64,000 nt of DNA from an uncultured Rhodopila sp. (GTDB taxonomy: Bacteria; Pseudomonadota; Alphaproteobacteria; Acetobacterales; Acetobacteraceae). Where the stretch lies: NCBI GenBank assembly GCA_903932145.1, contig CAIZFE010000043.1, positions 1-64,000 of the forward strand, written 5' to 3'. Each line of letters opens with the position of its first letter. Position 1 is the stretch's first letter. Both the position numbers and the translations under genes were made by a program. Of this stretch, positions 15,532-50,059 are shown one piece after another. Below the pieces are notes generated by a model, which saw nothing but the letters and a program-made list of their open reading frames with translations, was not told the origin of the DNA and did not search any database.

Positions 15532-15543
15532 GGGAGGCGGACA

Positions 15544-16158
15544 ATGGCCAAACTCAACAAAATCCAGACCGCTACGCTACCCGATCCAGTGTTGGACCGG
15601 CGCCAGGCCGTGCCGGCGCTGATTGAAAATCCGAGCGACTTCCTGATGGTCGCGGGGCTGGCGGGCACGGCGTGGGAGCTGTCGGCTCTGACACACGAAT
15701 CCCACAGCCTGTTCGGGCTGGGCGGCGCGATGGGCGCGGCTCCAATGATGGGCCTGGGGCTGGCGCTGGCGCAGCCGAAGCGGCGCGTGCTGGTGGCGAC
15801 CGGGGACGGCGAATTGCTGATGAACGTCGGCGCGCTTGCAACTATTGCGCTACAGAACCCGCCCAACCTGACGATCATCTGCGTCGATAATGGCCACTAC
15901 GGCGAGACCGGCAACCAGGACAGCCATACCGGCCTGGGAGTCCGCCTGGACGTGATCGCCGCCGGCTGCGGCTTTCCTGTCGTGCACGTGATCAACAGCG
16001 AAGCCGATATGGCGGAGGGCCGCCGTCTGGTCCGCGAGGGCGGCGGCCTGACGTTCATCCTGCTGCGGGTCCTGGAAGGGCCGGCGACTCACGACGGCAA
16101 AAAGAACCTGGTGCCCCACATCGAACGGGACCGCTTCCGGGCCGCTTTGCTTGGATAG
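15544..16158 (+). CDS. ThDP-dependent decarboxylase, beta (PP-domain) subunit; sulfo-/phosphonopyruvate decarboxylase-like
   Basis: This 204-residue protein is the diphosphate-binding half of the enzyme above. The ThDP/Mg motif is GDGELLMNVG (87-96) through to Asn116 in CVDNGHYGETG. The ELSALTHESHSLFGLGGAMGAAP-type segment (about 45-67) is typical of the ComE and phosphonopyruvate decarboxylase families. GGAGG sits just before the ATG. Its last eight bases overlap the start of the uracil-DNA glycosylase gene, which links this metabolic operon to a DNA-repair gene, probably by chance of packing. Confidence 0.82.
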   Translation: MAKLNKIQTATLPDPVLDRRQAVPALIENPSDFLMVAGLAGTAWELSALTHESHSLFGLGGAMGAAPMMGLGLALAQPKRRVLVATGDGELLMNVGALATIALQNPPNLTIICVDNGHYGETGNQDSHTGLGVRLDVIAAGCGFPVVHVINSEADMAEGRRLVREGGGLTFILLRVLEGPATHDGKKNLVPHIERDRFRAALLG

Positions 16159-25682: not shown

Positions 25683-27599
25683 TTAGCTCAACGCGTGGGC
25701 AAGCAGGCCTGTCAGGTTCGTGCTGCTGCCGGATATGGTCGCGATGGCCACGCCAACCCCGCCCGAAATTGGTGCGATCGATAGTGTCGCACCCTTCGCC
25801 GAGTCGGCCACAGTCAGATAATGCGACAGCGTGGTGGCCGCACCATTCCAATTTGTGGCCGCCAGCGCTGTCTTTAGGTCAAGCGTATCAGCGGAGGCCA
25901 GGATGTTGCTGGTAAAGGCATCGGTTCCTTTGCCGGCAGGCGGCAGGATATAGGTGTTGCCGCTGCCGGTATCGGTGACTGTGTTGGTACCGCCGGACAG
26001 GTTCACGACGTCACCGGAACCGCTGAGGAACAGCATATGATTGCCAGCTGTGGCAACGATCGAAATCTGGCTTTGCCCAACCGTGTCGCTGGCGAGGCCA
26101 GCCGCGATGGTGGTTGGCGCCGGCAGCGGGCTCGTGGCGGTGTCGCCAACCCAGCCAGCGGTCGGGCTGGTTTTGTCCCACCACAGATGGCTGGTGTTCT
26201 CCTGCCAGACGTCCTTGTTCACGTAGGCCAGTTCGGTCACGTTTGCCGTGGTTGGGTCGGCGGCGCCATTCACCGCGACCTGACCGGAGCTGGTGATCGT
26301 CCAGGTGTTGCCAGTCGAATCGGTGATCGCGCTGCTGGCGCCAGCCAATACCATCGTGTCGTTGGGCGATGCCGTTGATGTGGGCGTCGGCGATGGCGTT
26401 CCCTGGCCTCCCGCCGGCACACTGAACGAGTGGCTACCTGTGCTGGCTATCTCGTATGGTGTTCCGCCCGCCGTCACGTTGTCATAGGTAATGCCATCGA
26501 CATACAGGTTGCGGTCGGACGAATCGATGCCCATGTCCGCCGCATCCAGCGCCGCCAGGTCGTTCAGGAACGTGACCGCAACGGTGTGCGCTCCTGAACC
26601 CCAGTTTCCATTCAGGACGAATTGCTGCTGCTGGCCCTCCCAATTGATGGCAGAGGTGGTGAATGTGCCGCCGACTTGTTTGCCATCGACCGAGACGGTG
26701 AATTGGGCATCCCCTTGATAGGGATCCTCGGACATGGCCAGGGTCAATGTGTCCGCCCCGGTGCCGTTCTTGACTGAAGCCGGAGTCGTGGTTGGCGTTG
26801 ACGGCGCATTCGCCGGTACAACGGTCGTATCATTGACGGTGAACACCGCGTTCCCCGGCACGAAGGTGGGGGAGTTCGGAACCGCCATCGGCGACTGATA
26901 GAGTCCGGTCACGGTATTGGACACGGCAACCCCGTCGTAGGCGACGCTGTTGACGTAGACATTGCGGTCGCCGCCGTCGTTGAACGCCGCCTTGTCGCCC
27001 TGGGTCATCGAGTTGTTGGCAAAGGTGACCGTGACGGCGTGCGGTCCAGCTGCGAAATTGCCTTGGAATGTGAAGGTCTCGGTCTGGCCCGAGGCGTGCG
27101 AGGCCGTGACGGTTTGCAGCCCGCCGATCTGCTGACCATCGACATTGAGGGTGAACTCCGCGTCGCGACCCGCTAGTCCGACCGGTCCATCGGCATCTTC
27201 CGACATCGTCAGCACGATCGTGTCCGACCCGCTGCCGATCACGCCCGACGGGCCGGGGGGCGGCGTGGTGGTTGCCGGCAGAGGGCTGGTCGCGGTCCCT
27301 GTCGCGGGCGACCATGAGGCGCTCGGTGTCGTCTTACCCCACCACAGCTTGCCGGCATTTTCCTGCCAAATCGTGCCGTTGACATACGCCAGTTCGGTCA
27401 CGTTGGCGGTTGTGGGGTCGGCGATGCCGTTGACCGCGACCTGCCCGCCGGCGGTGATGGTCCAGACGTTGCCGCTGGCATCGCTGATCGCCGACGTCGT
27501 GCCGATAACGGCCGTATCATTCGGGGAAGGGGCTAATGCGATTGCGTTTGAGGAGGATGCCGGCGTTTGGCTGGAGGCCGAAATCTGCGTGCCGCTCAT
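25683..27599 (-). CDS. Large secreted protein with CBM60-like modules and type I secretion C-terminus
   Basis: This 638-residue acidic Ser/Thr/Gly-rich protein lacks an N-terminal signal peptide. Two copies of an about 85-residue repeat (27-110 and 412-495) share AVNG.ADPTTANVTELAYVN and LWW.KT.P. Two CBM60-like modules (about 120-228 and 282-392) share GTGADTLTLAMSED, VDGKQVGG and DRNLYVDGITYD. The last 140 residues (GNTYILPPAGKG, DTLDLKTALAATNWNG and an Ala/Gly tail) resemble a type I secretion target domain. It probably binds a carbohydrate outside the cell. No ABC exporter is nearby. Confidence 0.75.
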   Translation of the reverse strand: MSGTQISASSQTPASSSNAIALAPSPNDTAVIGTTSAISDASGNVWTITAGGQVAVNGIADPTTANVTELAYVNGTIWQENAGKLWWGKTTPSASWSPATGTATSPLPATTTPPPGPSGVIGSGSDTIVLTMSEDADGPVGLAGRDAEFTLNVDGQQIGGLQTVTASHASGQTETFTFQGNFAAGPHAVTVTFANNSMTQGDKAAFNDGGDRNVYVNSVAYDGVAVSNTVTGLYQSPMAVPNSPTFVPGNAVFTVNDTTVVPANAPSTPTTTPASVKNGTGADTLTLAMSEDPYQGDAQFTVSVDGKQVGGTFTTSAINWEGQQQQFVLNGNWGSGAHTVAVTFLNDLAALDAADMGIDSSDRNLYVDGITYDNVTAGGTPYEIASTGSHSFSVPAGGQGTPSPTPTSTASPNDTMVLAGASSAITDSTGNTWTITSSGQVAVNGAADPTTANVTELAYVNKDVWQENTSHLWWDKTSPTAGWVGDTATSPLPAPTTIAAGLASDTVGQSQISIVATAGNHMLFLSGSGDVVNLSGGTNTVTDTGSGNTYILPPAGKGTDAFTSNILASADTLDLKTALAATNWNGAATTLSHYLTVADSAKGATLSIAPISGGVGVAIATISGSSTNLTGLLAHALS

Positions 27600-28043: not shown

Positions 28044-28127
28044 ATGGACAGGGCGATCCGTTGCTGCAACTCGTTGATCTCACCCGCCGTTTTGGCGATA
28101 AGCGCGCGGTTGACCGGGTCAGCCTGA
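28044..28127 (+). other. Possible 27-codon leader frame overlapping phnC
   Basis: GGGAGG (28031-28036) lies eight bases before ATG 28044, a far better start context than that of phnC. This frame encodes 27 residues ([10 protein letters not shown]...) and stops at TGA 28125-28127, inside phnC in another frame. It may be a coupling leader, or a frame error may separate this start from phnC. Confidence 0.3.
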
Positions 28128-28867
28128 GCATCGGTGACGGGGAGATGGTCGGCGTCATCGGCCGCTCCGGAGCCGGCAAATCGACTCTGCTGCGTCTGAT
28201 CAATCGCTTGATCGATCCCTCCGAGGGCAAAATCGTCTTCGACGGCACGGACGTGGCGGCGCTGCGGGGCAAGGACCTCCGAGCCTGGCGGGCCCGCACG
28301 GCGATGATTTTTCAGCAGTTCAATCTGGTGAACCGGCTGGATGTGCTGACCAACGTCATGTGCGGACGACTGTATGATATACCCGCCCCGCGCGTGTTGC
28401 TGAAGTGGTTCACCCCGACCGAACGGGCGCTGGCGATCCAGGCGCTGGATCGGCTGGGGATGGCGGATGTGGCGATGAACCGCGCCGATGCCCTCTCTGG
28501 CGGCCAGCAGCAACGCGTCGCCATCGCTCGGGCCTTGATGCAACGCCCGAAGATCGTGTTGGCGGACGAACCGATCGCCTCGCTCGATCCGCTGAACGCC
28601 AAGCTGGTGATGGATGCGCTGGCTGACATCAACCGGCGGGATGGCATCACCGTGCTGACCAATCTGCATACGCTGGACACCGCACGCGCCTATTGCCGGC
28701 GGATTATTGGCATGTCGGCCGGCCGGGTCGTGTACGATGGCGCACCGGCGGGGCTGACCGATCACGTTTTACGCGACATCTACGGCCAAAACGCGCACGA
28801 AACCCTGGACGAGCGCCTGACGTCCACTAGTCTCCCTACAGCCGCGCTCGCTGCTTTGGCGGGATAG
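28061..28867 (+). CDS. phnC: Phosphonate ABC transporter ATP-binding protein PhnC
   Basis: This 268-residue ABC ATPase energises phosphonate-type uptake at the inner membrane. It has Walker [10 protein letters not shown] (about 34-42), the Q-loop [10 protein letters not shown] (about 87-96, the FNLV sequence typical of PhnC), signature [15 protein letters not shown] (about 147-161), Walker [14 protein letters not shown] and the switch His in LTNLHTLD. The start appears to be TTG 28061, because an in-frame TGA lies at 28040 with no ATG or GTG between. phnD follows after 24 bases. Confidence 0.93.
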
Positions 28868-28891
28868 GGCTTCAACCGGGAGGCCTGTGTC

Positions 28892-29821
28892 ATGATCCGC
28901 CGCACCTTTATTCGTTTGGCCTTTGCCATGCTGGCACTGATCGCGCCGCTGCGGGCGCACGCCCAGGACTGGAAGGGGCAGGTCAAGGAGTTGCGCATCG
29001 GCCTGCTGGGCGGTGAAAACACGTCCAGCCGCCTCGCCCGCTACGACAATTTTCAACATTTGCTGCAAGAAACACTCGGCATACCGGTCAAACTGTATCC
29101 GGCCGCGGATTATGCCGGCGTGATGCAGGCGATGGGGGCTGGGCAGTTGGACCTCGCCGAGTTCAGCCCGTCAGCCTTTGCCGGCGCGTGGCTGGACTGT
29201 AAATGTGTCGAGCCGACCGTCGTTCCGCTGGAGAAGGACGGTACCGTCTTCTACGTCTCGGTCATGCTGACCCGGAAGGATTCCGGCATCACCTCGATCG
29301 ACCAGATGAAGGGGCATTCGCTCGCCTGGGCCGACCCTAATTCGGCGTCCGGCTATCTGATCCCCAGCGCATCGCTGAAATCCAGCGGTATCGATTTGGC
29401 CGACGGGGCGTATTTCTCCCGCACCGGATTCGCCGGTGGACACGAGCAGGGGATCATCGCGGTGCTGAACAAGCAGTATGACGCGTGCGTCACCTGGACC
29501 TCGGGCCAGGGCGACATCGAGCAAGGCTACAGCCGTGGCGCGATCCGGGGCATGGTGGACCGCGGCATGCTGAAGATGTCCGACGTCAATATCATCTGGA
29601 AATCGGGCAAGATCCCGAACGGTCCCTGGGGTCTGCGGTCCTCATTGCCCGCCGGCCTGAAAGCGGCGTTCACCGCGTTCATGCTGGATCTGCCGAAATC
29701 GCACAAAGACATCTACGACCAGATCGAACAGGGTTCGGGGGTCGGTTACGTGCCGGCGACGATGGACCTCTACACCGACATTATCGGACTGCGCGAAGCC
29801 GAACGGCAGGGAAGCCGATAG
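28892..29821 (+). CDS. phnD: Phosphonate ABC transporter substrate-binding protein PhnD
   Basis: This 309-residue periplasmic binding protein has a signal peptide (1-24, ending AHA) and the type II fold typical of PhnD. It opens ELRIGLLGGENTSSRLARY and contains AADYAGVMQAMGAGQLDLAEFSPSAF (about 72-97) and WADPNSASGYLIPS (about 147-160), where the Ser residues contact the phosphonate group in characterised homologues. GGGAGG precedes the ATG by seven bases. It is second in phnCDEE. The ligand could be a phosphonate, phosphite or phosphate ester. Confidence 0.93.
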   Translation: MIRRTFIRLAFAMLALIAPLRAHAQDWKGQVKELRIGLLGGENTSSRLARYDNFQHLLQETLGIPVKLYPAADYAGVMQAMGAGQLDLAEFSPSAFAGAWLDCKCVEPTVVPLEKDGTVFYVSVMLTRKDSGITSIDQMKGHSLAWADPNSASGYLIPSASLKSSGIDLADGAYFSRTGFAGGHEQGIIAVLNKQYDACVTWTSGQGDIEQGYSRGAIRGMVDRGMLKMSDVNIIWKSGKIPNGPWGLRSSLPAGLKAAFTAFMLDLPKSHKDIYDQIEQGSGVGYVPATMDLYTDIIGLREAERQGSR

Positions 29822-29826
29822 GGCGC

Positions 29827-30753
29827 ATGACGGCCGTCAATCCCACCGACGATCCGGCCTACCGTCTGTTTCAGCAACGGTTTGGTGCGTTGCGGCGGTC
29901 GCGCCAAACGGAGTCGCTGCTGACGCTGGCAGCAGTGGTTCTGCTGTTCGTTATCGCCGCCGTGTGGACCGATTTCTCTCCCGAACAAATCGCCAACGGC
30001 ATTCCCCGCATTGGCGAGTATTTCGGCAAACTCTTCTCCATTGAACCGAAGGGCAGCGCCGGGCCGGTTGGCGTTCTCGCGGTTCCGCATCTGTTCGGCG
30101 GGGTGAAGGAACCGCAATCGATCGCCTACTGGTTCTACCGGATCGGGACCTACGCGGCGTTACTGTGGCAGACCATCGAGATGGCCATCCTGGCCACCGC
30201 CCTTGGCTTCGGCGCGGCCTTCGCGCTGTCCTTCCCCGCCACGCATACCTTTGTTGGCAATCGCGCCGTCGTATTCGTCACGCGACGACTGTTGGAGATG
30301 ATGCGCACGATCCCCCAGGTCGTGCTCGCCTTCATCCTGGTCTGGCCGTTCGGGATCGGGCCGTTGGCGGGCATTCTCGCCATCGCCGTTCACACGACAG
30401 GGACGCTGGGAAAACTGTTCTGCGAGCTAAACGAGAACGCCGATCTGCGTCCGGTCGATGGCATCCGATCCGTCGGAGGGTCCTGGCTGGCGCAAATCCG
30501 GTTCGCCGTCGTGCCGCAGGTGCTGCCCGGCTTCCTCAGCTACGCGCTGCTGCGGTTCGAGATCAACGTCCGCTCCTCCACCATCATCGGATTCGTCGGG
30601 GCCGGCGGTATTGGTCAGGAATTGAAGCGGGTGATCGGGTTTAACATTTATGAGGAAGTCAGCGCGATCGTCATTCTGATACTGCTCATTGTCGTCGCCA
30701 TCGACCTGATCTCGGAACAAATCCGTCACCGCTTTATCGGTGCGGCCGCATGA
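29827..30753 (+). CDS. phnE: Phosphonate ABC transporter permease PhnE (first)
   Basis: This 308-residue inner-membrane permease has an N-terminal helix (about 34-54), a periplasmic loop and five further membrane segments. The cytoplasmic EAA-like coupling loop reads ADLRPVDGIRSVGGSWLAQIRFAVVPQ-type (about 205-232), followed by INVRSSTIIGFVGAGGIGQEL, a PhnE signature. ATG 29827 lies five bases after the phnD stop. Its last four bases overlap the next gene (ATGA). Two different permeases imply a heterodimeric channel. Confidence 0.92.
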   Translation: MTAVNPTDDPAYRLFQQRFGALRRSRQTESLLTLAAVVLLFVIAAVWTDFSPEQIANGIPRIGEYFGKLFSIEPKGSAGPVGVLAVPHLFGGVKEPQSIAYWFYRIGTYAALLWQTIEMAILATALGFGAAFALSFPATHTFVGNRAVVFVTRRLLEMMRTIPQVVLAFILVWPFGIGPLAGILAIAVHTTGTLGKLFCELNENADLRPVDGIRSVGGSWLAQIRFAVVPQVLPGFLSYALLRFEINVRSSTIIGFVGAGGIGQELKRVIGFNIYEEVSAIVILILLIVVAIDLISEQIRHRFIGAAA

Positions 30754-31574
30754 GCCTGGACCTCGCCGCCGAACGCCTGCGCCATCCCGAGGTCTTCCGC
30801 GGCAAGGGGTGGCTGCGCTGGTTACTGTTGGGCGCGGTGTTTGCCTACCTGGGCTACCTGATGTGGCTGTTCGATTTCAGCCGCGTTTTCACCGACCTGC
30901 CGCGAGTCTGGGTGATCGTGCGGCTGATGCTGGACTGGAGCGGCATCGCCGAGTGGGACCATGTGGAACTCTGGCGATCGATGCTGGAAACGGTGGCGAT
31001 GGCGTATCTCGGCACCATGCTGGCGGTTGTCTTCGCCGTGCCGCTTGGGTTCCTGGGCGCGCGCAACGTCATTCCTGAACGCGTCTTCCATTTCGTCACC
31101 CGCCGGATGTTCGATGGACTGCGCGGACTGGACCAACTGATTTGGGCGTTGGTGTTCGTCCGCGCGATGGGCCTGGGACCGATCGCAGGGATCATGGCGA
31201 TCGCGGTGGCGGAAACCGGGATATTGGCGAAACTGTTTGCCGAAGCGGTGGAAAACATCGACCGCAAGCAAGTTGAGGGCATCACCTCGGTCGGGGCCGG
31301 TTTCATCGCGCGGCTTCGCTTCGCCGTGCTGCCCCAGGTGCTGCCGGTGATGATCAGCCAGACGCTGTATTCGATCGAATCCAATTCGCGCGAGGCCACC
31401 ATCCTCGGCCTGGTCGGGGCAGGGGGGATTGGCCTGCGGTTGTCGGAGCGGATTCAGATCAACGCCTGGGATCAGGTGGCGTATGTGATCATCCTGATCC
31501 TGGTTTCTGTGGCGCTGATCGACACCACGTCCCGGTATTTGCGACTGCGGCTGATCGGCCCCGCAAGAACCTGA
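30750..31574 (+). CDS. phnE: Phosphonate ABC transporter permease PhnE (second)
   Basis: This 274-residue second permease is translationally coupled to the first. It has six predicted membrane segments, beginning at about residues 24-44. The coupling segment IDRKQVEGITSVGAGFIARLRFAVLPQ-type (about 170-196) and the conserved NSREATILGLVGAGGIGLRL (about 211-230) parallel its neighbour. The operon ends here: no C-P lyase, phosphonatase or regulator gene follows. The TGA stop starts a dispersed repeat. Confidence 0.93.
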   Translation: MSLDLAAERLRHPEVFRGKGWLRWLLLGAVFAYLGYLMWLFDFSRVFTDLPRVWVIVRLMLDWSGIAEWDHVELWRSMLETVAMAYLGTMLAVVFAVPLGFLGARNVIPERVFHFVTRRMFDGLRGLDQLIWALVFVRAMGLGPIAGIMAIAVAETGILAKLFAEAVENIDRKQVEGITSVGAGFIARLRFAVLPQVLPVMISQTLYSIESNSREATILGLVGAGGIGLRLSERIQINAWDQVAYVIILILVSVALIDTTSRYLRLRLIGPART

Positions 31575-32738: not shown

Positions 32739-33596
32739 ATGTCAGGGTTACGCTGTCGTGAAATAGAGGCGCGTGACACCACCGCCATCATTAAATTGCT
32801 CACCACAGGATTTCGCGCAGACCGGCGGCGCGCTTATTGGGAAAACGCGATTCGGATTCTGTCTGAACATCCGGTACCGCCCGGACTGCCGAAATATGGT
32901 TACCTATTGGAAAATGCGGGTGTTCCGGTTGGCGTGCTTCTCAGCATCTTTTCAATGGGTCCGGCTGATGATGCCAGTGCGCTTCGGTGCAATGTCTCGA
33001 GCTGGTACGTGGAACCGGGGTTCAGAAGCTACGCACCCCTGCTGGCCTCTCGGGCCTTAAAGCATAAAGACGTGACCTACTCGAACCTGTCGCCCGCTCC
33101 GCACACATGGTCCACCTTGGTGGCCCAGGGCTACAAACCATTCTCCAGCGGACTATTCGTTTCTCTTCCCTGGCTTAGCGGTTCGGTGGCCGGCTCGCAT
33201 GTTGAAGCAATTGCTCCCGGCACGTCCGCCGACGAAACCTTATCCTCTTTCGAGCTCCAATTACTAAGGGATCACGCTCAATATGGTTGCCTGAGTTTAA
33301 TCTGCGAACTCAACGGCCGCAGGTTTCCGTTCGTCTTTCGCGTAGGACTAAAATTCGGTGTGATACGACGGGCAAATCTGATTTATTGCCGCGATCTGAA
33401 CGACTTTGTCCAATTCGCCGGGCCCATCGGACACTATTTGGCACGGCGCCTGATCCCGCTGGTCGTTATCGACTCAAACGGACCGATCCCCGGGTTGGCC
33501 GGCATATTCCGTGATGGCCGGCCGAAATTCTACAAGGGACCCGATCGGATGCGTCTGGGGGATGTCACTTACAGTGAGCTTGCGATGTTTGGATGA
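32739..33596 (+). CDS. GNAT-like acyltransferase, convergent to the ACP cluster
   Basis: This 285-residue cytoplasmic protein resembles GNAT-like proteins annotated as acyl-CoA acyltransferases. The N-terminus REIEARDTTAIIKLLTTGF is the usual first strand and helix. YLLENAGVPVGVLLSIFS (about 53-70) and WYVEPGFRSYAPLLASRALK (about 89-108) match the central sheet and the acyl-carrier-binding helix. The C-terminal half is less conserved. It points toward, and lies 181 bases from, the operon encoding an ACP, an acyl ligase and a reductase, so it may use the ACP-bound product. This functional link is inference. Confidence 0.6.
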   Translation: MSGLRCREIEARDTTAIIKLLTTGFRADRRRAYWENAIRILSEHPVPPGLPKYGYLLENAGVPVGVLLSIFSMGPADDASALRCNVSSWYVEPGFRSYAPLLASRALKHKDVTYSNLSPAPHTWSTLVAQGYKPFSSGLFVSLPWLSGSVAGSHVEAIAPGTSADETLSSFELQLLRDHAQYGCLSLICELNGRRFPFVFRVGLKFGVIRRANLIYCRDLNDFVQFAGPIGHYLARRLIPLVVIDSNGPIPGLAGIFRDGRPKFYKGPDRMRLGDVTYSELAMFG

Positions 33597-33777
33597 ACGA
33601 GACGGATCGGGCCCCATCCGGAAAACGTGGACTCGATCCGCGATGCTGCTGGCTTGGTGACCTTCGTCTACACGCTTGGCCGATGCTCGAAACCATTCCT
33701 GCGCTCGACCGATTGCCTCATCGTTTGCAACGCGGGTTTGCTTGAATCAAACGGTGACGGAACGCGCCGCATGTAAA

Positions 33778-34530
33778 TCAGGCTGTGTTTCCCGCATCGA
33801 TCGTCATGACGGTCCCGGTGATATTGCGTGCCTTCTCGCTGAACAGGAAATCCACCGCATCTGCGACATCCGCGATCTGTGCCATCCGTTGCAGAGCGCT
33901 ACGCCGTGCGATTTGCGCTTTCTGGGCCGTATTCAGATCGTGTGTCATTTCGGTATCGAGAAAACCTGGAGCCACCGCGTTGACGGTAATCCCGAGCGGA
34001 CCAAGTTCGCGGGCGAGAGATCGCGTGAAACCCACAAGAGACGCCTTGGTCGCACTGTAAGCCGACAAACCGCTATAACCGGTTGCACCGACAATTGACG
34101 ATACATTTACGATTCGGCCGCCCATTTTGGTCGTTCCGACCTGTGCGCTCATCATTGATCGGACGATGTATTTTGTCAGTATCAACGGCGACAGGACATT
34201 CAGCCGCACCAGCCGCTCGATCGCGGCATCCGCCATGTTCGCCAATATCCCGCTGGAACCGAGCCCGGCGTTGTTCACCAAACCATAGAACGGCCCGAAC
34301 TCGTTCCGTAAAGTTTTCCCAAGATCCGCAATCCCATCGATATCCGACAGGTCGAACGCTCGGAAGTGCAGCGCGCCCTTTTGCGCCAGGGCTACTTGGT
34401 CCCGGGCGCCCGCCATCAGGTCGCCCTGCTGGCGAGCAATGGCAATGACCTGAAATCCGGAAGACGCGAGTGCCACAGCGATTCCCAGACCCAGCCCCCG
34501 GCTACCGCCGGTCACCAGAACGTTACGCAT
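33778..34530 (-). CDS. SDR-family reductase (FabG-like) of the ACP cluster
   Basis: This 250-residue classical short-chain dehydrogenase has the cofactor loop TGGSRGLGLGIA (8-19), NNAGLG (about 87-92), catalytic Ser in NVSSIVG, and Tyr-x-x-x-Lys in SAYSATKASL (about 150-159). A PG motif (VAPGFLDTEM) follows. The family includes 3-oxoacyl-ACP reductases, fitting the ACP encoded upstream. The start lies inside the end of the ligase gene (eight-base overlap). It is last in the four-gene minus-strand operon. Confidence 0.88.
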   Translation of the reverse strand: MRNVLVTGGSRGLGLGIAVALASSGFQVIAIARQQGDLMAGARDQVALAQKGALHFRAFDLSDIDGIADLGKTLRNEFGPFYGLVNNAGLGSSGILANMADAAIERLVRLNVLSPLILTKYIVRSMMSAQVGTTKMGGRIVNVSSIVGATGYSGLSAYSATKASLVGFTRSLARELGPLGITVNAVAPGFLDTEMTHDLNTAQKAQIARRSALQRMAQIADVADAVDFLFSEKARNITGTVMTIDAGNTA

Positions 34531-35914
34531 GCGGGCGCACCAGCTTGCCGGACTCCGCGATCTCCAGCGATGCAACCGGATGCAGCGTGGCGGGAATCTT
34601 GTGACGGGGTAAGACGCGCCGGCACGCCTCCAGGATTTCGGCCTTGATCGTTTCGAACGGGATGCCTTGGGCGGATGGCCTGACGACGATGTCCGCTGCG
34701 ATGACCGCACCGGTAATCGGATTGGGCCGCGCCCTCGCCCGAACCATTTGCACGGCCGGGTGCTGATTGATCACCGCCTCGACCTCTTCGGGATGCACCT
34801 TCTGGCCGCCGACATTGATGATGCCTTCCCTGCGTCCGACGAAGTAATATCGATCGCCCCGCAGTTCCAACATGTCCCCGGTGTCAACAAAGCCCTCTGC
34901 GTCCGTTAGCACCTTTCCATCGCCGAGGTAGTGCGATGCCGTGCGGGCCGAACGAATGCGCAGGGACCCGTCCACCACCCGCATCTCTGCCTTGGCTCCT
35001 GGCTGGCCGATCACGGTGGCGGGAAAACCCGCCAGCCGGTCGCGCACGTCAAAGGCGACCCCGGCCTCGGTGGAGGCGAACGCGTGCGCGATGTCCGCCT
35101 TCGGGTAGGCGGCAGCCAGGCTGTTCAGAACCGCCTGGTCCGCAACCTCACCAGACAAGCGAACGTAACCTGGCTGGATTTCCCGGGCAGCCGGCGTCAT
35201 CAGGGCGCGGCGCCAATGGGACGGCGTTCCCGAGATATGTGTCACACCAGATCGGCCGGCTCGCACCAGGAAGTCGCTCACGGTCTCGTTGGCCTGTGAC
35301 AATACCATGGAGCCGCCACCGAGCAGTGCCCGTAGCAGTATCTGTAATCCGCCGTAGCGACGGACGTCATAGAACGTACTCCAGACGGCGTCGTTGGCGA
35401 CCGCCAACCCGTCGTCAAGCGGCCCGGTCAGACTGGCAAGTGTGTGAACCACGATCTTGGGCCGCCCGGTCGTGCCCGAAGTAAACAACAGCCAATCGGT
35501 CACCCGGTTGCGGCGAGGGATATCACTGACGGGCAGCAGTTTGTCACGCAGGCAGACCAAAGTCGTGCCGTCAGGCGGTTGCGACCCTGGACCGGTTCCG
35601 TCGGATACAATGACATCGACCTCCGCCTCGGCGATCACAGCCGGTAAATGCTCTGGCGCAAGATCCGGAGGGCACAATAGTAAGCGACGCGCGATGCCAT
35701 CCAGTTGCAGCAGCGCGGCCACCGCTGGCAATTGCCGGGCTGACGATATCAGAACGGACTTATCGCGCAGCGTTTCGACGCCCCCTTCGAGGTTCCCGGC
35801 ATGACCGAGGTCAGCCAGGCGCAGGTCGCCGGATGCGTCGGAAACACGACGCGTGTCAGACAGTCCCGCCCTGGCGGTCAGATCCCAGAGCGCGCCGCCT
35901 CTATGCTGGTGCAT
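34523..35914 (-). CDS. Acyl-adenylating enzyme (ANL superfamily ligase), compact
   Basis: This 463-residue AMP-forming ligase activates a carboxylic acid and passes it to CoA or a carrier protein. Motifs are the P-loop LFTSGTTGRPK (about 146-156), the aromatic/Thr-Glu site FASTEAG (about 276-282), the ribose-binding Asp in VDTGDML, GRREGIINVGGQKVHPEEVE of the hinge, and the catalytic C-terminal Lys in ESGKLVR. The N-terminal region is shorter than in typical acyl-CoA synthetases. It overlaps the upstream ACP gene by 14 bases, which suggests that it loads this ACP. The acid is unknown. Confidence 0.87.
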   Translation of the reverse strand: MHQHRGGALWDLTARAGLSDTRRVSDASGDLRLADLGHAGNLEGGVETLRDKSVLISSARQLPAVAALLQLDGIARRLLLCPPDLAPEHLPAVIAEAEVDVIVSDGTGPGSQPPDGTTLVCLRDKLLPVSDIPRRNRVTDWLLFTSGTTGRPKIVVHTLASLTGPLDDGLAVANDAVWSTFYDVRRYGGLQILLRALLGGGSMVLSQANETVSDFLVRAGRSGVTHISGTPSHWRRALMTPAAREIQPGYVRLSGEVADQAVLNSLAAAYPKADIAHAFASTEAGVAFDVRDRLAGFPATVIGQPGAKAEMRVVDGSLRIRSARTASHYLGDGKVLTDAEGFVDTGDMLELRGDRYYFVGRREGIINVGGQKVHPEEVEAVINQHPAVQMVRARARPNPITGAVIAADIVVRPSAQGIPFETIKAEILEACRRVLPRHKIPATLHPVASLEIAESGKLVRPHA

Positions 35915-36146
35915 GTTCGTACAGCGCGATCAAATCACCGACGGTGACCGGGAAGAAGCCGTTATCGTCACGCGAAAAGGGGTCGAAACCCAGCTTGTCC
36001 TCCAAGGAGGCCACCAGCACGGCGATACCCAATGAATCAAGACCCGTGTTGAGCAGCAGCGTTCCGTCCGTCAACGCTGGCGCCGGCTTGCCCTGGCTTA
36101 CGCAAATGCTACGGATCTGTTCAATAATCGTTGATCGGATCGACAT
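35901..36146 (-). CDS. Acyl carrier protein (discrete, secondary-metabolism type)
   Basis: This 81-residue acidic four-helix carrier has the phosphopantetheine attachment Ser38 in GLDSLGIAVLVASLEDKLG. The sequence is far from a housekeeping AcpP (no DSLDTVEL) and resembles discrete ACPs of biosynthetic clusters. It sits between the heme-oxygenase-like gene (30 bases upstream) and the ligase gene (overlapping by 14 bases), so stoichiometric production with the ligase is likely. Confidence 0.9.
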   Translation of the reverse strand: MSIRSTIIEQIRSICVSQGKPAPALTDGTLLLNTGLDSLGIAVLVASLEDKLGFDPFSRDDNGFFPVTVGDLIALYEHAPA

Positions 36147-36176
36147 GATTGTTTCCGGGTCTGGATGTTGGACGAT

Positions 36177-36815
36177 TCAGACAAGCAGTGCCGGGGCGGC
36201 CTCGACCAAAATATGCCGGAAGCTTTCCCACAGAGGCACGACATGTTCGGTGGGCCGCAAATGCCGGCTGAGCGCCCCGTGGCCGCTTTCAGGATCGGTA
36301 TCGAATTTGATGTGTTCGACCAGAAAATGTCTGAAGGCCCGCAGCGCGTCGCTGTTCCAGTCCTGACAGGTCAGGATCGCCCGAAACACCCGCTCCAGAC
36401 CGCCATCTTCGTAACTGGCGATGCTTTGGGCGCGCGCCTGGGGTCCCATGGCCCGAACACTCCGCAGGTAGGATTGGCCAATACGATCCAACCTATAGCG
36501 CCGATCCGCATCGATCGGCGACAGTTCCAAGGCTCGGCGCATGAATTCGTCATGATTCATCCGCTCATCTGCGGCCGCGACATTGGGCCACGGCGACAGA
36601 TTGCTCGTGTCGCACTCGCCGGTTTCGAGCTCTTTCAGTTTTTCGTCATCAGGATGCAGGCTGCGCGCCAACATCAGGTTTTCGCGAAACTGGATCGAAA
36701 AATAGTAATAAATCACCGCGACATTCGTCAGATCGAATGCCGACAACTCCTTCCAGTTAAGGTCCTCGATGGACTCAACGATGGATTTGTAGGATGTGTA
36801 TTCGGAAACCTGCAT
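36177..36815 (-). CDS. Putative heme-oxygenase-fold (diiron oxidase-like) protein of ACP cluster
   Basis: I cannot place this 212-residue all-helical protein in a named family with certainty. It has an aromatic-rich core helix (VIYYYFSIQFREN, 34-46) with Glu45 and His54. A later helix pattern, His163-x4-His168-x3-Asp172 and His179-Gly (in HFLVEHIKFD...GHG), resembles the H-x3-D-x(2-6)-H ligand set of heme-oxygenase-like non-heme iron enzymes, and SPWPNVAAADERMNHDEF (73-90) looks family-specific. Such enzymes oxidise or decarboxylate amino or fatty acids. As the first gene before ACP and ligase, it may act on the ACP-bound acid. Confidence 0.6.
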   Translation of the reverse strand: MQVSEYTSYKSIVESIEDLNWKELSAFDLTNVAVIYYYFSIQFRENLMLARSLHPDDEKLKELETGECDTSNLSPWPNVAAADERMNHDEFMRRALELSPIDADRRYRLDRIGQSYLRSVRAMGPQARAQSIASYEDGGLERVFRAILTCQDWNSDALRAFRHFLVEHIKFDTDPESGHGALSRHLRPTEHVVPLWESFRHILVEAAPALLV

Positions 36816-42236: not shown

Positions 42237-43400
42237 TCAGGCGTGCTGATGCCAGGCCGGCGCTTGATCATTTGCCGACTGGTGGCTGATCCACCAACTA
42301 TGGTTGCTTCCACCCGATGAGCCAGCGCTATCAGGAACAGTCGAAGCAGTCGTCGTAGGAGCGCTAAAGTCCTGGGTCGTGGGCGATGTAACGGTTGGCG
42401 TGGTATCGGTCACGCTGGTGGTGTTCGCCACGGCTGGCAATCCCGTGGTGGTTGAACCTCCGGCCGCGGTCGTCGGCGTCGATGCTGAGGCAACGAAACT
42501 CATACTGCTACCCGAACCGGAACCCGAAGCCGGAATCGTATCGCCGGCGGTTGGATTACTCCCCGCGGTCACGGACCAACTGTTGGAGCCGTCGGATGCA
42601 AGCTCCCACGGCGTATTGGATGCCGGTGCCCCGCCATCCAGGCTCATGCCCATGACATACAGGTTGCGGTCTGTGGTATCCACGGCCAATTGGGTACCGG
42701 GATAGAAGTCACCGATCTTATCATTAACGAAGGCAACTGAAACCGTGTGGTTGCCAGATCCGAAACTGCCATGGACATCGAATTCCTGCTGTTGGCCTTG
42801 GGCAACGTCAGCGGTCGTGGTTTGAGTTCCGCCAATCTGTTGCCCATCGACCGACACAGTGAACTGCGCATCCCCCAGATAAGGATTCTCCGCCATGTTC
42901 AGCACAAGAGTATCTGCACCACTGCCGACCGAAACCGCACCGGGCGTGGTCGTCGGGGTTGACGGTGCATTGTCGGGCACGGCCGTCGTGTCGTTAACTG
43001 TATAAATCGCATTCCCATAAACATTTCCCTCGGTCGAGTTTGGAGGAAAAAACGGGGACTCATAGATCGGTGTCGTAGAGTTCGAAATGGTCTGTCCGTC
43101 ATAGCTCAGGCCGTCGACAAACAGGTTTCGATCGCCCGCCACCCCCGGGTAGATGAAGTTGTTGGTGAACGTAACCGCAATGGTGTGCGCACCCGGCGCA
43201 TAGTTACCGGCAAACGTAAAGCTTTGATCCTGCCCCGCCGCATGCGAAGCCGTTACGGTTTGCACGCCACCGATCTGTTGCCCATCCACATTGACCGTGA
43301 ACTGGGCATCTGTGCCCACCGCCTGATCCTCTGACATATTGAGTGTAATATTGTCGGAGCCAGAACCAATAACCGTATTATTCGTCGTCGAACCGGACAT
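42237..43400 (-). CDS. CBM60-like two-module secreted protein, paralogue of the 25.7-27.6 kb protein
   Basis: This 387-residue protein starts at ATG 43400 (MSGSTTNN), with GGAGGG five bases upstream. Two CBM60-like modules (about 8-110 and 155-265) share GSGSD..TLNMSED, VDGQQIGG and DRNL(F/Y)V with the larger paralogue, including a nearly identical linker (YTVNDTT.VP.NAPSTPTTTP). The tail (about 285-387) is Ser/Thr/Pro-rich and ends NHSWWISHQSANDQAPAWHQHA-like without the type I secretion domain found in its paralogue. No signal peptide is visible, so its export route is unclear. Confidence 0.75.
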   Translation of the reverse strand: MSGSTTNNTVIGSGSDNITLNMSEDQAVGTDAQFTVNVDGQQIGGVQTVTASHAAGQDQSFTFAGNYAPGAHTIAVTFTNNFIYPGVAGDRNLFVDGLSYDGQTISNSTTPIYESPFFPPNSTEGNVYGNAIYTVNDTTAVPDNAPSTPTTTPGAVSVGSGADTLVLNMAENPYLGDAQFTVSVDGQQIGGTQTTTADVAQGQQQEFDVHGSFGSGNHTVSVAFVNDKIGDFYPGTQLAVDTTDRNLYVMGMSLDGGAPASNTPWELASDGSNSWSVTAGSNPTAGDTIPASGSGSGSSMSFVASASTPTTAAGGSTTTGLPAVANTTSVTDTTPTVTSPTTQDFSAPTTTASTVPDSAGSSGGSNHSWWISHQSANDQAPAWHQHA

Positions 43401-43606
43401 AAATGCCCTCCATCCCATTGCATATGAAACCACGTTGCTCGGCGCCGAGTGATTGCGGCCTAACAGCGGGGGGCGGACATCACAACGGGGGGCGGGTGGC
43501 CAATCGGGGATCTTGGACGATTTTCACAGTTGTGCACTGTGGATAAGCCAAGCGACGGGGACTATCATCCTAATCCGCCGCCACAATGATTATTCGGGCG
43601 GACGCG

Positions 43607-46413: not shown

Positions 46414-46605
46414 TCATGATAGTCGATACACCGCCTCGGCCCGTGCCGCACGTGCGACAAGCGTGTCCTGCACGCGGAACAGCAGTTCGGAATGGTCCTC
46501 ATCCGACACATTATCGCTCCGCATCACCATCTGAATCAGAGGGTCCTGCAGCAATGCAGCCAATGTAAGGGTGCTGATCGTCGTCGTGCACATCACTGTC
46601 ACCAT
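46414..46605 (-). CDS. Small conserved-looking hypothetical protein (63 aa)
   Basis: This small protein has a hydrophobic N-terminus (TTTISTLTLAALL) and a compact amphipathic body, DPLIQMVMRSDNVSDEDHSE followed by LLFRVQDTLVARAARAEA. The codon-quality and helix pattern look like a genuine gene, and I recall similar small proteins in Acetobacteraceae, but no function is known. The ribosome binding site is weak. Confidence 0.5.
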   Translation of the reverse strand: MVTVMCTTTISTLTLAALLQDPLIQMVMRSDNVSDEDHSELLFRVQDTLVARAARAEAVYRLS

Positions 46606-46855
46606 TCCCGTTGAGCGCCATAAGGAGTGTAGCGGCTGCTGTTCAACAATATGGAAATGAATTGTGTCTTAACGTGGCCGGTGATTGGGCATTTTTCGCA
46701 CGTTTTGGACACTTTGTGGCGATACCGTGGTAAATGGGCATCATTCCGGCCGCCCGAACGCCTGTGGTGCGGCGGAAACGGCCGGTTTCAGCGGCCTCGG
46801 TAATATAACAAAGGGTTAATGAAATAATTCGCAATAAAATTAATGATCGGTAACC
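46606..46855. other. AT-rich intergenic region
   Basis: No gene is supported. The stretch 46795-46855 (TAATATAACAAAGGG...GCAATAAAATTAATGATC) is strongly AT-rich compared with the window and may be a promoter for the small minus-strand gene or part of the downstream terminator region of the flavin reductase. Confidence 0.35.
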
Positions 46856-46885
46856 AGCGCTGCCGATGGTCGAACCGGCAGCGCT
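46856..46885 (-). terminator. Hairpin downstream of flavin reductase gene
   Basis: AGCGCTGCCG (46856-46865) pairs perfectly with CGGCAGCGCT (46876-46885) across a ten-base loop, nine bases after the flavin reductase stop on the minus strand. No immediate U-tract follows, but the DNA beyond is AT-rich. Confidence 0.55.
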
Positions 46886-46894
46886 CACGGGATT

Positions 46895-47542
46895 TTATTC
46901 GGCTGCCTTGGCCTTCCGAGCCGGCCACTCATCCAGCGGAATGCGGGGCAATTCGAATCGGTCGGTCACCCGCGAATACCAGCCACCGCCATGCAAGCGC
47001 CCGATCAGGTCCAGCTTGGGCGTATCAATGTAGCAACGCTCGGCGTCCAGCACACAATCGTCACGCACGTAAACCGCGAGCACCTTGCCCAGCACCACGG
47101 CCCGGTCGATCCCGACATCGACGATCACCAGCCGCTCGCACTCGAACGACACGGGGGCCTCGGCGATACGGGGCGGTTTCACATGCAGGGAGGGGGCCGT
47201 GGTCAGTCCGGCCTCTTTCAGCTCGTCCACGCCCCTGGGGAAATCGATCGCGGTGATGTTCATCGGTTCCGCCAGTTCGAAGCTGACGAGGTTGATGACG
47301 AACTGTCCGGTGCGCCGGATGTTGCCGCCGGTGTCCTTCACATCGCCCGGGCCGCGGCCGCCGATCCCGAACGCCAGCACCGGCGGATTGCCGGACATCG
47401 CATTAAAGAACGAGAACGGCGCCGCGTTTACCGTCCCATCGGTATCCTGCGTCGTGACCCACGCGATCGGGCGAGGCCCGATGGTCGATGTCAGCAGCTT
47501 ATAAATATTCTCGTTTTTGGTGTCGGTGAAATCGAACAGCAT
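46895..47542 (-). CDS. Flavin reductase-like domain protein (DIM6/NTAB family)
   Basis: This 215-residue FMN-binding split-barrel protein has the family's STIGPRPIAWVTTQDTDGTVNAAPFSFF (about 16-43, the FMN contact), GGNIRRTGQFVINLVSFELA and the substrate loop RGVDELKEAGLTTAPS. ATG 47542 is chosen because GAGG sits six bases before it; an in-frame ATG lies 12 bases earlier. The family reduces flavin with NAD(P)H, often to feed a monooxygenase, though none is adjacent. Confidence 0.88.
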   Translation of the reverse strand: MLFDFTDTKNENIYKLLTSTIGPRPIAWVTTQDTDGTVNAAPFSFFNAMSGNPPVLAFGIGGRGPGDVKDTGGNIRRTGQFVINLVSFELAEPMNITAIDFPRGVDELKEAGLTTAPSLHVKPPRIAEAPVSFECERLVIVDVGIDRAVVLGKVLAVYVRDDCVLDAERCYIDTPKLDLIGRLHGGGWYSRVTDRFELPRIPLDEWPARKAKAAE

Positions 47543-47930
47543 CGGCCGCCTCATGTGGTTATTAGGCCACAGCGTTACGCGGCATGTCGCCGGTTGTCCA
47601 GGCGATCGGGCGATAAGGTCAGCCAGCCGAGCGGGATCAAAACAGACATCGGGATGAAGGATGGCTGACCGGCCTACAGGCGGACGGGTCTTTCGCCCTA
47701 ACACGGGTTTAAAAGACCAGCGGAGAGGCTGCCGCCCATCGTCAGGGCCCGGCCGTCGCGCGGCAAACAATCTACGGGTGTGAAATTTTAGGCCAAAAGC
47801 GGAATTTCACCAAGTATGGTATCCAATTCGACCTCTTTTACTACCGGTCGATTCCCGAAATGTATTGGCCCGCGCATGAGCACAGGCCGGGCCGGCGGGG
47901 TTCACCAAACAACCAATTATCGCTCCGCAC

Positions 47931-48248
47931 CTACCAGCGGCCTCCCCAGCGACGGCTCCAGCCAATGCGAGGACCACTGCCCCAGTGGCCACCGCGCCGG
48001 AGTAGCCTGATGACGAACAGGAGCACGACGGCGCCAATGGTGGCGTCGATGACGGCGCCCACAATGCCGAAACCGAGATGGATGCCGGACCGGGGCATCA
48101 GCCAATCGCCGATGAAGGCACCGGCGACCCCGACGACCATGTCGCCGACGATACCGAAGCCAGTCCCCTGAACTATTTGACCGGCCAGCCATCCGGCCGC
48201 GAGGCCAACCAATAATATGACGAGGATCGCTTCGCTCGAAAGATACAT
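47931..48248 (-). CDS. GlsB/YeaQ/YmgE-type stress-response membrane protein
   Basis: This 105-residue inner-membrane protein has three hydrophobic segments (about 6-24, 32-50 and 58-82) containing GLAAGWLAGQIVQG and VVGVAGAFIGDWL, the transglycosylase-associated signature. A basic Gly/Trp/Arg tail (RRGGHWGSGPRIGWSRRWGG) extends the C-terminus beyond typical length (about 80). A G-rich Shine-Dalgarno sequence precedes the ATG. Expression under general stress is typical for the family. A 44-residue membrane peptide is encoded 132 bases upstream on the same strand. Confidence 0.85.
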   Translation of the reverse strand: MYLSSEAILVILLVGLAAGWLAGQIVQGTGFGIVGDMVVGVAGAFIGDWLMPRSGIHLGFGIVGAVIDATIGAVVLLFVIRLLRRGGHWGSGPRIGWSRRWGGRW

Positions 48249-48380
48249 TGTGACTCCCCCCCTCGGGAAATGCCATTCGTGCTGTCAGGAGGCTGTCGCG
48301 GACAAGTCGCGACGGCCGAGCGCTTTCTGTATTCCACCGACCGGAACTATCGCCGGTCGGATCGTAAACGCGCTACCGCA

Positions 48381-48515
48381 TCATCGCACCAGCAAGACGA
48401 CCAAAATGATCACGAAAATGGTTCCAAACCCGCCACCGACATACGGCCCACCATAGTAGAAACCGCCACCGCCAAACAGGAACATCAGTATAAGTACCAG
48501 GATGATCAGATTCAT
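48381..48515 (-). CDS. DUF3309-type membrane micropeptide (44 aa)
   Basis: The short frame reads MNLIILVLILMFLFGGGGFY, a Gly/Tyr/Pro turn (YGGPYVGGGFG), then a second hydrophobic stretch TIFVIILVVLLVR. This hydrophobic-Gly-hydrophobic layout and size match the DUF3309 family of tiny alphaproteobacterial membrane proteins. Function is unknown. The frame is preceded by only a weak GAAAG. Its pairing with the GlsB gene on the same strand suggests shared stress or envelope context. Confidence 0.7.
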   Translation of the reverse strand: MNLIILVLILMFLFGGGGFYYGGPYVGGGFGTIFVIILVVLLVR

Positions 48516-48757
48516 AATTTACGTACTTTCACGAACGATTGTTACACAGACCTATAGATAGCGTTTACCCGCCTTGCGGTGCCAGAATCGGAATCTACCT
48601 ACAGGCAGATCATTCGCCAGGTGAGGTTTAAGCACCGCGATAAGGCACCTGACCGCCAAAGCCCTGCCCCTGTTCCCCTCCACTCGAATGACACTGTTGC
48701 GGACGGCGCGATTTCACGCCAAAGGAAAGGATCGATACCGCAGCAGGGACAAACACC
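48516..48757. other. Divergent intergenic region
   Basis: These 242 bases separate the DUF3309-type micropeptide (minus) from the MFS symporter (plus) and contain no supported gene. They presumably hold both promoters. Confidence 0.4.
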
Positions 48758-50059
48758 GTGAGTCAGGCCACCCGGACCACCGACGATTTCGCAATCATGC
48801 GCCATCGCCTGAGATCGATCTTCGGCGGTTCGATCGGCAATCTGATCGAGTGGTATGACTTCTACGTTTATAATTTTTTCGCCCTGTATTTCGCGAAATC
48901 GTTCTTCCCGAACGCCAATCCGACGGTTCAGCTTCTCAACACATTCGGCATCTACGCGCTCGGTTTTCTGATCCGCCCGGTTGGCGGCTGGATACTGGGG
49001 GCCTACGCCGACAAAGCAGGACGCCGCGCGGCGCTGACCTTGTCGGTGACGCTTATGTGCGCGGGATCGTTCCTGATCGCCATTGCCCCGACCTACGCCG
49101 CCATCGGCATCGGTGCCCCGATCCTGCTGCTGGTCGCCCGGTTAATCCAGGGCGTTTCGTTAGGCGGCGAATACGGCACCTCCGCCACCTACCTGAGTGA
49201 GATCGCGGTCTCGAAACATCGCGGTTTCTACAGTTCATTCCAGTATGTCACGCTGATCGGCGGTCAGGTGCTGGGCAGCCTGACGCTGCTGGTGATGCAG
49301 CAGGGGTTCTCGGGAGCGGAACTGGAGGCCTGGGGCTGGCGCATCCCGTTTGCAATCGGCGCGGCGCTGTCGGTGTTCGGCCTGTATCTGCGGCGCAATC
49401 TGGAGGAGACGGACGCGTTCAAGAAAGCCGCCCTGCAAAAGCGCGGCAGCCCGCTGACCGAGCTGCTGAAACATCCGAAGCAAATCCTGTTGGTGTTCGG
49501 CCTGACCATGGGCGGAACGACGGCGTTCTATACCTACACGACATATATGCCGACCTTCCTGGTCAATACCGTCAAGCTGACGCGCGATCAGGCGACGCAG
49601 ATCTCGTTTATCACCCTGGTGATCTATGCCGCCCTGCAACCGGTCTTCGGCGCGATCTCCGACCGGATCGGGCGGCGGCCGGTGCTGATGTGGTTCGGTA
49701 TCCTGGGGACACTGTGCACGGTGCCGATCCTGACGACGCTGGGTGCCACGCGCGATTACACGACGGCGCTGGGCATCATCATGGCGGCGCTGCTGATCGT
49801 GTCCGGCTACACGTCCATCAATGCCGTGGTGAAGGCCGAGCTGTTTCCAGCGGGTATCCGGGCGCTGGGGGTAGGTTTGCCGTATGCCGTGGCAGCGTCG
49901 TTGTTCGGCGGCACCGCACCGTATATCGCGCTGGCGTTCAAGGATGGCGGGCACGAAAGCTGGTTCTATTGGTACGTGACCATTTTGATCTTCGCGTCGC
50001 TGCTGGTTTACACGTTCATGGGGGATACCAAGAAATCGTCCCAGATCGACCGGGACTGA
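48758..50059 (+). CDS. MFS metabolite:H+ symporter (MHS family)
   Basis: This 433-residue, 12-TM inner-membrane symporter has the MHS signature GGSIGNLIEWYDFYVYNFFAL (about 22-42). Motif A is GAYADKAGRRAAL (about 86-98) and SDRIGRRPVL in the second half, with the Q-G-x-S-L-G-GEYG segment of TM4-5. Relatives take up alpha-ketoglutarate, citrate, proline/betaine or shikimate. It starts at GTG 48758 with a weak AGGGA; an ATG 14 codons later would delete only a polar leader. The stop TGA begins a dispersed repeat. Confidence 0.9.
   Translation: MSQATRTTDDFAIMRHRLRSIFGGSIGNLIEWYDFYVYNFFALYFAKSFFPNANPTVQLLNTFGIYALGFLIRPVGGWILGAYADKAGRRAALTLSVTLMCAGSFLIAIAPTYAAIGIGAPILLLVARLIQGVSLGGEYGTSATYLSEIAVSKHRGFYSSFQYVTLIGGQVLGSLTLLVMQQGFSGAELEAWGWRIPFAIGAALSVFGLYLRRNLEETDAFKKAALQKRGSPLTELLKHPKQILLVFGLTMGGTTAFYTYTTYMPTFLVNTVKLTRDQATQISFITLVIYAALQPVFGAISDRIGRRPVLMWFGILGTLCTVPILTTLGATRDYTTALGIIMAALLIVSGYTSINAVVKAELFPAGIRALGVGLPYAVAASLFGGTAPYIALAFKDGGHESWFYWYVTILIFASLLVYTFMGDTKKSSQIDRD

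Follow-up and report, generated by a model that had tools for sequence, protein, structure and literature searches.

Do five tightly packed genes in the genome of an uncultured Rhodopila sp. form a pathway of their own, or are they one part of something larger? The question is raised by a stretch of 64,000 nucleotides (contig CAIZFE010000043.1 of assembly GCA_903932145.1; hereafter the window), in which genes for a putative heme-oxygenase-like dimetal oxidase (HDO), a discrete acyl carrier protein (ACP), a compact ANL acyl ligase and a short-chain dehydrogenase/reductase (SDR) follow one another on the minus strand, and a gene for a weakly GNAT-like protein converges on them. The original prediction, drawn from the sequence, took these five to be a dedicated pathway. 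Comparison with related genomes points elsewhere: the five genes seem to belong with others, some nine to twelve in all, that are inherited together, and the window may hold one portion of a modular pathway whose product, a small and unusual acyl or acyl-amine group, is placed, most likely, on surface polysaccharide, a reading which we put forward tentatively. The genes, motifs, overlaps, linkage and co-occurrence on which it draws are observed; the reactions, their order and their destination we infer.

The larger gene set in related genomes

The ligase was found in 13 of 193 genomes, that of the window included, at an E limit of 1e-30, the HDO-like protein in 11 (one a fragment; limit 1e-10), a pyridoxal-phosphate (PLP) decarboxylase in 10 (1e-60), the GNAT-like protein in 7 (one weakly; 1e-8) and a close MetA in 15 (cut at E 1e-45 from the 32 genomes with a match at 1e-12). 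Ligase and HDO, ligase and decarboxylase, and HDO and decarboxylase each have nine genomes in common; with close MetA the ligase shares 11 genomes and the HDO and decarboxylase 10 each, and with the GNAT-like protein the corresponding numbers are six, five and five. Fisher p-values for the co-occurring pairs run from 4e-6 down to 2e-13, values that ignore shared ancestry among genomes that are not independent and include the window's own; 8 to 15 candidates were scored in many of the 193. Ligase, HDO, decarboxylase and close MetA occur all together in eight genomes, and the four genomes of the same genus with the ligase (the window's own among them) are the same four that have the decarboxylase, the two genes being on different contigs in the window's genome (G000) and in G029. 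Exceptions exist: HDO without ligase in G024 (the fragment) and G044, decarboxylase without ligase in G044, and close MetA without ligase, HDO or decarboxylase matches in G066, G073 and G090 (three of the 15).

Gene order tells a similar story. Near the ACP-ligase-SDR triad in 12 relatives' loci (L025-L036) we find a second ligase in nine, MetY in six, the decarboxylase in five and an HDO in five (one interrupted), and an MBOAT adjoins the gene set in three loci (L028, L031 and L144). Twelve collinear genes are shared by L028, from the same genus, and L031, in the order ACP2-MBOAT-SGNH-hydrolase-ACP-LIG-SDR-MetY-MetA-decarboxylase-HDO-ligase, where LIG is the counterpart of the window's ligase. 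In L178, from genome G362 of another family of the class, the groups MetY-MetA-decarboxylase-ligase, SDR-LIG-ACP and GNAT-HDO lie within about 10 kb; all five families whose co-occurrence the original prediction proposed as a check are thus found together there, inside about 4.1 kb. The window's own genome carries most of the additional genes on a second contig (L162, G000:C86 6808-13871), arranged as an HDO paralogue, MetY-MetA-decarboxylase-ACP and a second ligase, and this second ACP is 60% identical to that of the window. The notion of a self-contained five-gene pathway is thus not supported, since relatives add MetY, MetA, the decarboxylase, the second ligase and, in three loci, the MBOAT.

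Family tests of the additional genes were run on L031 and on the window's own genome. MetY exceeds the TIGR01326 cut-off, and MetA exceeds that of NF003776 in the own genome and falls below it in L031. The PLP decarboxylase is above PF00282 and below every specific model, and the MBOAT is above the PF03062 cut-off. The second ligase is FadD6/PRK08279-like, scoring under the PRK08279 cut-off with a sequence cut by the stretch end; the double hydrolase resembles exosortase-A hydrolases, again below cut-off, and the 'SGNH' protein has no family match, its label having been given by eye. In a variant from Bradyrhizobium sp. Ec3.3 (L038 5026-7734), GNAT, MetA and MetY go with a second ACP, an acyl-CoA-dehydrogenase-like protein and an amino acid--[ACP] ligase that passes the NF005479 cut-off; the stretch has neither HDO nor decarboxylase, and this one locus hints that the amine-making step may be exchangeable. 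A literature search for the combined gene set, confined to open-licence PMC papers, returned no relevant paper, which is a weak absence.

Elsewhere in the window, at 46414-50059, genes for a 63-aa protein, a flavin-reductase-like protein and a transporter have look-alikes, by eye, that adjoin the cluster in G020 (L026 11616-14145), a hint that the cluster occupies an ancestral site and was broken up afterwards.

The proposed acyl arm: ligase, carrier and reductase

The five genes, their coordinates and their tight packing (Table 1) were confirmed as first described. A gap of 30 bp separates the HDO and ACP genes, the ACP and ligase genes overlap by 14 nt and the ligase and SDR genes by 8 nt, and 181 bp lie between the end of the GNAT-like gene and the SDR stop on the opposite strand. 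The listed open reading frame of the SDR begins further upstream, at 34710. Starts suited to the 14-nt overlap are available in 12 of 23 loci and to the 8-nt overlap in 17 of 22 (the window included in each count), with several of these loci also offering alternative starts, and because of this recurrence we do not regard the overlaps as chance. Gene starts in the unannotated relatives are uncertain, since they were called by a codon-usage script.

Table 1. The five genes of the cluster, in window coordinates.
Feature	Position	Strand	Description
HDO-like putative dimetal oxidase	36177-36815	-	212 aa; short profile match to DUF3050 (44 columns), His/carboxylate residues as candidate ligands
Discrete ACP	35901-36146	-	81 aa; DSL phosphopantetheine site, Ser38
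Compact ANL (AMP-forming) acyl ligase	34523-35914	-	463 aa; PF00501 and PF13193
SDR / FabG-like ketoreductase	33778-34530	-	250 aa; PF00106
Weakly GNAT-like putative acyltransferase	32739-33596	+	285 aa; convergent with the SDR gene

The ligase scores well above the cut-offs of PF00501 (67.3 bits, cut-off 29.9) and PF13193 (36.9 bits, cut-off 24.5), and its motifs TSGTTGRPK, STEAG, DTGD, GRREGIINVGG and SGKL (K457) are intact, such that the AMP-binding and C-terminal domains, P-loop, TGD, hinge and catalytic lysine of an ANL enzyme are all present. The SDR likewise passes PF00106 (168.3 bits, cut-off 26.6) with intact TGGSRGLG, NVSS and YSATK motifs, which include the Rossmann TGxxxGxG and the YxxxK. 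The ACP, at 20.7 bits, falls 0.1 under the PF00550 cut-off of 20.8, and its Asp-Ser-Leu (Ser38) is invariant in all 15 aligned sequences, the window's included. We consider it very likely that the ligase loads the adjacent ACP, the gene overlap being the single observation that favours the ACP over CoA. In the proposed scheme, the ligase would activate a small acid and load it onto Ser38, and the SDR would then reduce a keto group of the ACP-bound chain.

A more ordinary account would see in these genes a fatty-acid or o-succinylbenzoate-type CoA ligase, a housekeeping FabG and a spare ACP, and the best NCBIfam matches are indeed MenE/FadD-like for the ligase and FabG-like for the SDR. However, no cut-off is reached among the best 25 of 92 families for the ligase or the best 25 of 240 for the SDR: menE gives 105.9 of 330, 3oxo_ACP_reduc 197.3 of 297.8 and the nearest SDR model 194.2 of 222, with the SDR thereby below the FabG model cut-offs, and a plain MenE/FadD/FabG function was rejected on these scores. 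Given as well the patchy presence of the ligase (13 of 193 genomes) and its conserved overlap with a dedicated ACP, a housekeeping role is very improbable.

Of the 12 ligase loci in relatives, 11 keep the order ACP-ligase-SDR, the other (L035) having no ACP seen beside the ligase. Named relatives were sampled as at least 80 loci, of which L037-L045 were annotated and all 80 screened by tblastn. Seven close loci (L037-L043, among them loci from Bradyrhizobium and a Hyphomicrobiales metagenome-assembled genome (MAG)), the only such ones among the 80 named loci listed, have ligases 47-53% identical to that of the window; five keep the triad order, L041 (a Centralia MAG) reads ACP-ligase-MetY, and L043 is cut by a contig end. 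More distant triads, with ligases 38-39% identical, occur in plasmid records (three opened of the 14 with a ligase match): one adjoins pseI in a flagellin island of Azospirillum brasilense, one has a glycosyltransferase and an acyltransferase as neighbours in Qingshengfaniella, and one lies amid sugar genes in Haematobacter. ACP, 3-oxoacyl-ACP reductase and AMP-dependent synthetase are also listed together for the group II flagellin glycosylation islands of Aeromonas (PMC7874193). The cluster had been thought to have no obvious precedent; because the same functions recur in flagellin and sugar loci and in a published island, its triad does have one.

No tRNA, and no RNA family at the gathering threshold, was found within the window. 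By eye, the region is flanked at 25683-27599 and 42237-43433 by two proteins that look related and share a repeated module (MSED...DAQFTVNVDGQQIGG); two adjacent genes at 15016-16158 resemble a split thiamine-diphosphate decarboxylase of sulfopyruvate or phosphonopyruvate type, and the same window holds a phosphonate-type ABC transporter at 28061-31574.

The HDO-like protein and a proposed amino-acid arm

Neither the HDO-like nor the GNAT-like protein of the window reaches a Pfam or NCBIfam cut-off, and the fold assignment of the former depends on a short profile match to DUF3050. Its motif HFLxEHIxxDxDxxxGHG resembles DUF3050, and an hhalign comparison of 16 HDO relatives with nine DUF3050 (PF11251) proteins gave a probability of 44% and an E-value of 2.3e-4 over 44 columns only (residues 139-185); the profile score of 35.9 stands above the best of 100 column shuffles (24.2) and the reversed profile (18.2). 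By hmmscan, none of the 16 members matches PF11251. The candidate ligands are E67 (or E84), H88, E136, H168, D172 and H179, of which H168, D172 and H179 lie inside the aligned stretch and the others were paired with DUF3050 by eye. H88, E136, D172 and H179 are kept in all 16 relatives, and E67 and H168 in 15. An orphan relative (L153 6312-7022) has lost E67 and H168, two of the six, together.

In published work DUF3050 has been connected with the heme-oxygenase-like fold, its ligands being Glu, His, Glu, His, Asp and His (PMC4520260), and it is matched by MgoB (PMC3298696); for MboA, an HDO of solved structure, the ligands are three His and three carboxylates (PMC13185094), the usual set of the superfamily (PMC13108848). 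The window protein shares the H-x3-D-x(n)-H motif and, as candidate ligands, conserved His and carboxylate residues, and differs in a longer D-to-H spacing (x6, against x3 in DUF3050 and x4 in MboA), in lying under Pfam detection and in its gene neighbours. Other assignments were tried and rejected: PF14518 (Haem_oxygenas_2) had no hmmscan match and none in G000 at E 0.001, with a profile P of 0.31 against three PF14518 members, and a WbqC-like identity arose in one member of 16 at E 0.028, under the cut-off. A sequence search of the PDB with the single protein returned nothing below E 0.1, and the HDO profile found designed repeat proteins only (best E 2.3e-4, residues 12-64), which we judged spurious. 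On balance the protein is probably a dimetal oxidase, our confidence being held lower because the DUF3050 match covers 44 residues only, and it is possible that it represents a new branch of dimetal HDOs.

The protein is rare beyond the bacterial family, with matches in two of 385 genomes drawn from the class (its own and G362), none on plasmids at E 1e-3, and no relative in viral contigs. Two further paralogues bring the copies in the window's genome to three. An HDO occurs in 18 places in the 193 genomes, and in 12 of them MetY, MetA or the decarboxylase is close by. The remaining six comprise a fragment, the window copy, an orphan in the same genome and three copies that lack such neighbours, of which G020:C398 stands at the end of its contig. 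The metalloprotein had been predicted to oxidise the ACP-bound acid. Because of these neighbours it more likely works in an amino-acid arm than in the acyl arm, and the earlier interpretation, broadly right about the acyl arm, missed part of the gene content and was probably mistaken about the place at which the HDO works. In the amino-acid arm, encoded mostly on the other contig, MetA would activate homoserine or a like alcohol, MetY would exchange the acyl group for sulfur or another nucleophile, the PLP decarboxylase would produce an amine, and the HDO would oxidise or cleave an intermediate.

It may be asked whether the HDO belongs here at all. As a passenger, put upstream of the ACP gene by a rearrangement, it would serve something else, and the ACP-ligase-SDR triad (with the GNAT-like protein) would function alone. 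Among annotated loci an HDO stands immediately upstream of the ACP gene in the window only, one of the three own-genome copies lacks pathway neighbours, the Azospirillum and Bradyrhizobium triads have no HDO in the stretches covered, and the tblastn screen of the 80 named loci listed, which were collected through their ligases, turned up no match to the HDO. Nevertheless, the nine genomes common to HDO (11) and ligase (13), the position of the HDO within the large islands L028, L031 and L178, and the 12 of 18 places just described argue for membership, and we think a passenger role improbable.

Probable destination of the product and comparison with known systems

In the modular pathway, joining and transfer of the product would fall to the second ligase, the GNAT-like enzyme and the MBOAT that three of the related loci add. 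The convergence of the GNAT-like gene on the operon was as first described; its identity is less secure, the window protein having no GNAT domain match and members of its family matching PF13527 in two of 12 cases and PF00583 in one of 12, marginally (best E 0.0013). Protein and profile searches of the PDB gave nothing of note. The gene adjoins the ACP gene in L034 and stands between the ACP and HDO genes in L178. Weak GNAT-like matches (27-28% identity) lie within predicted proteins of 1041 and 1032 aa in L160 (4270-7395) and L161 (6200-9298), possibly a fused form.

Reading the window by eye yields no glycan gene, and the case for a destination is therefore drawn from its relatives. Ten neighbours in eight loci, preselected by eye for their likeness to glycan genes, all have flippase, glycosyltransferase, Wzz, sugar-transferase, nucleotidyltransferase or epimerase domains, with a generic epimerase in L178 and two of the loci (L156 and L158) having a GNAT-like gene and no ligase. 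GNAT-like relatives stand in exopolysaccharide loci in Methylocystis, Shinella and Roseateles records and, by eye, in Rhizobium sp. 11515TR; five of the 24 plasmid records with a GNAT match were opened, two of them without annotation, and one of these two was gene-called here. We lean, with some reserve, towards a surface glycan as the destination.

The products might instead be secreted small N-acyl amines or aminolipids, in which an amine from the decarboxylase and HDO is joined to the ACP-borne acyl chain by the GNAT-like enzyme. FeeM-type N-acyl amino acid synthases reportedly use acyl-ACP in this way. The positions of the GNAT-like gene in L034 and L178 described above, a set that includes a PLP decarboxylase and two ligases, and surroundings of the window in which the eye finds no glycan gene would all suit such a product, but triads and GNAT relatives lie in glycan loci, an MBOAT adjoins the set in three loci, and no GNAT was found in seven of the 13 genomes with the ligase. 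We regard secreted N-acyl amines as possible and unlikely.

Several observations weigh against the modular, surface-directed pathway as well, beyond the dependence among genomes and the lack of a recognised glycan gene in the window already described. The GNAT-like family call is marginal and the gene is present in only six of the 13 ligase genomes; the DUF3050 match is short; the ligase occurs without an HDO match in G038, G100, G167 and G186, and neither an HDO nor a decarboxylase accompanies the Bradyrhizobium triads within the stretches covered. Furthermore, the HDO stands alone, without pathway neighbours, in several places, including the third copy of the window's genome (L163). More speculatively still, one may imagine a multi-locus pathway with a new dimetal-HDO branch, in which homoserine would be converted via MetA, MetY and the PLP decarboxylase to an amine or acid that contains sulfur or is unsaturated. 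This would be joined to a hydroxyacyl group carried on the ACP, and MBOAT or GNAT-like enzymes would move it to exopolysaccharide, as a kind of surface modification that has yet to be described; in this detailed form we hold the pathway to be doubtful.

ACP-ligase-reductase triads in glycan islands are already in print, their chemistry left unexplained in the portions available. What is new is that one branch of the triad is tied to a defined additional set of MetA, MetY, PLP decarboxylase, a possible new HDO branch and a second ligase. Because this set co-occurs strongly and its loci are collinear, a direct search for the product and for the reaction of the HDO becomes feasible, and the modular pathway, if true, would add a surface modification and possibly also a new dimetal-oxidase reaction.

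Of the known systems, the Aeromonas group II islands (PMC7874193), compared by function only, group the same three functions with glycan genes; they differ in being listed as ACP, reductase and synthetase with luxE/luxC, and the available part of the report names no HDO, MetA, MetY or amino-acid decarboxylase. The p3 flagellin island of Azospirillum brasilense Sp7 (L168) has the same ACP-ligase-SDR order, with a ligase 38.5% identical over 69% of the query; it adds ketoacyl-ACP synthase III and pseI, and the stretch displayed contains no decarboxylase, HDO, MetA or MetY. Dlt-type D-alanylation employs the ligase DltA, the carrier DltC, the MBOAT DltB and DltD. A comparable arrangement is seen in L031, where the MBOAT (158 of 375 bits against the DltB model) stands beside an ACP and a by-eye SGNH-like protein, whereas the related loci add SDR, HDO, MetA, MetY and decarboxylase; in the window neither an MBOAT nor a DltD was recognised by eye beside ligase and carrier. 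Last, in the BesC/BesB pair of terminal-alkyne amino acid synthesis an HDO stands beside a PLP enzyme of Cys/Met metabolism. No halogenase was noticed here, and ACP, ligases, decarboxylase and MetA come in addition; the juxtaposition of an HDO with a Cys/Met-metabolism PLP enzyme is common to both.

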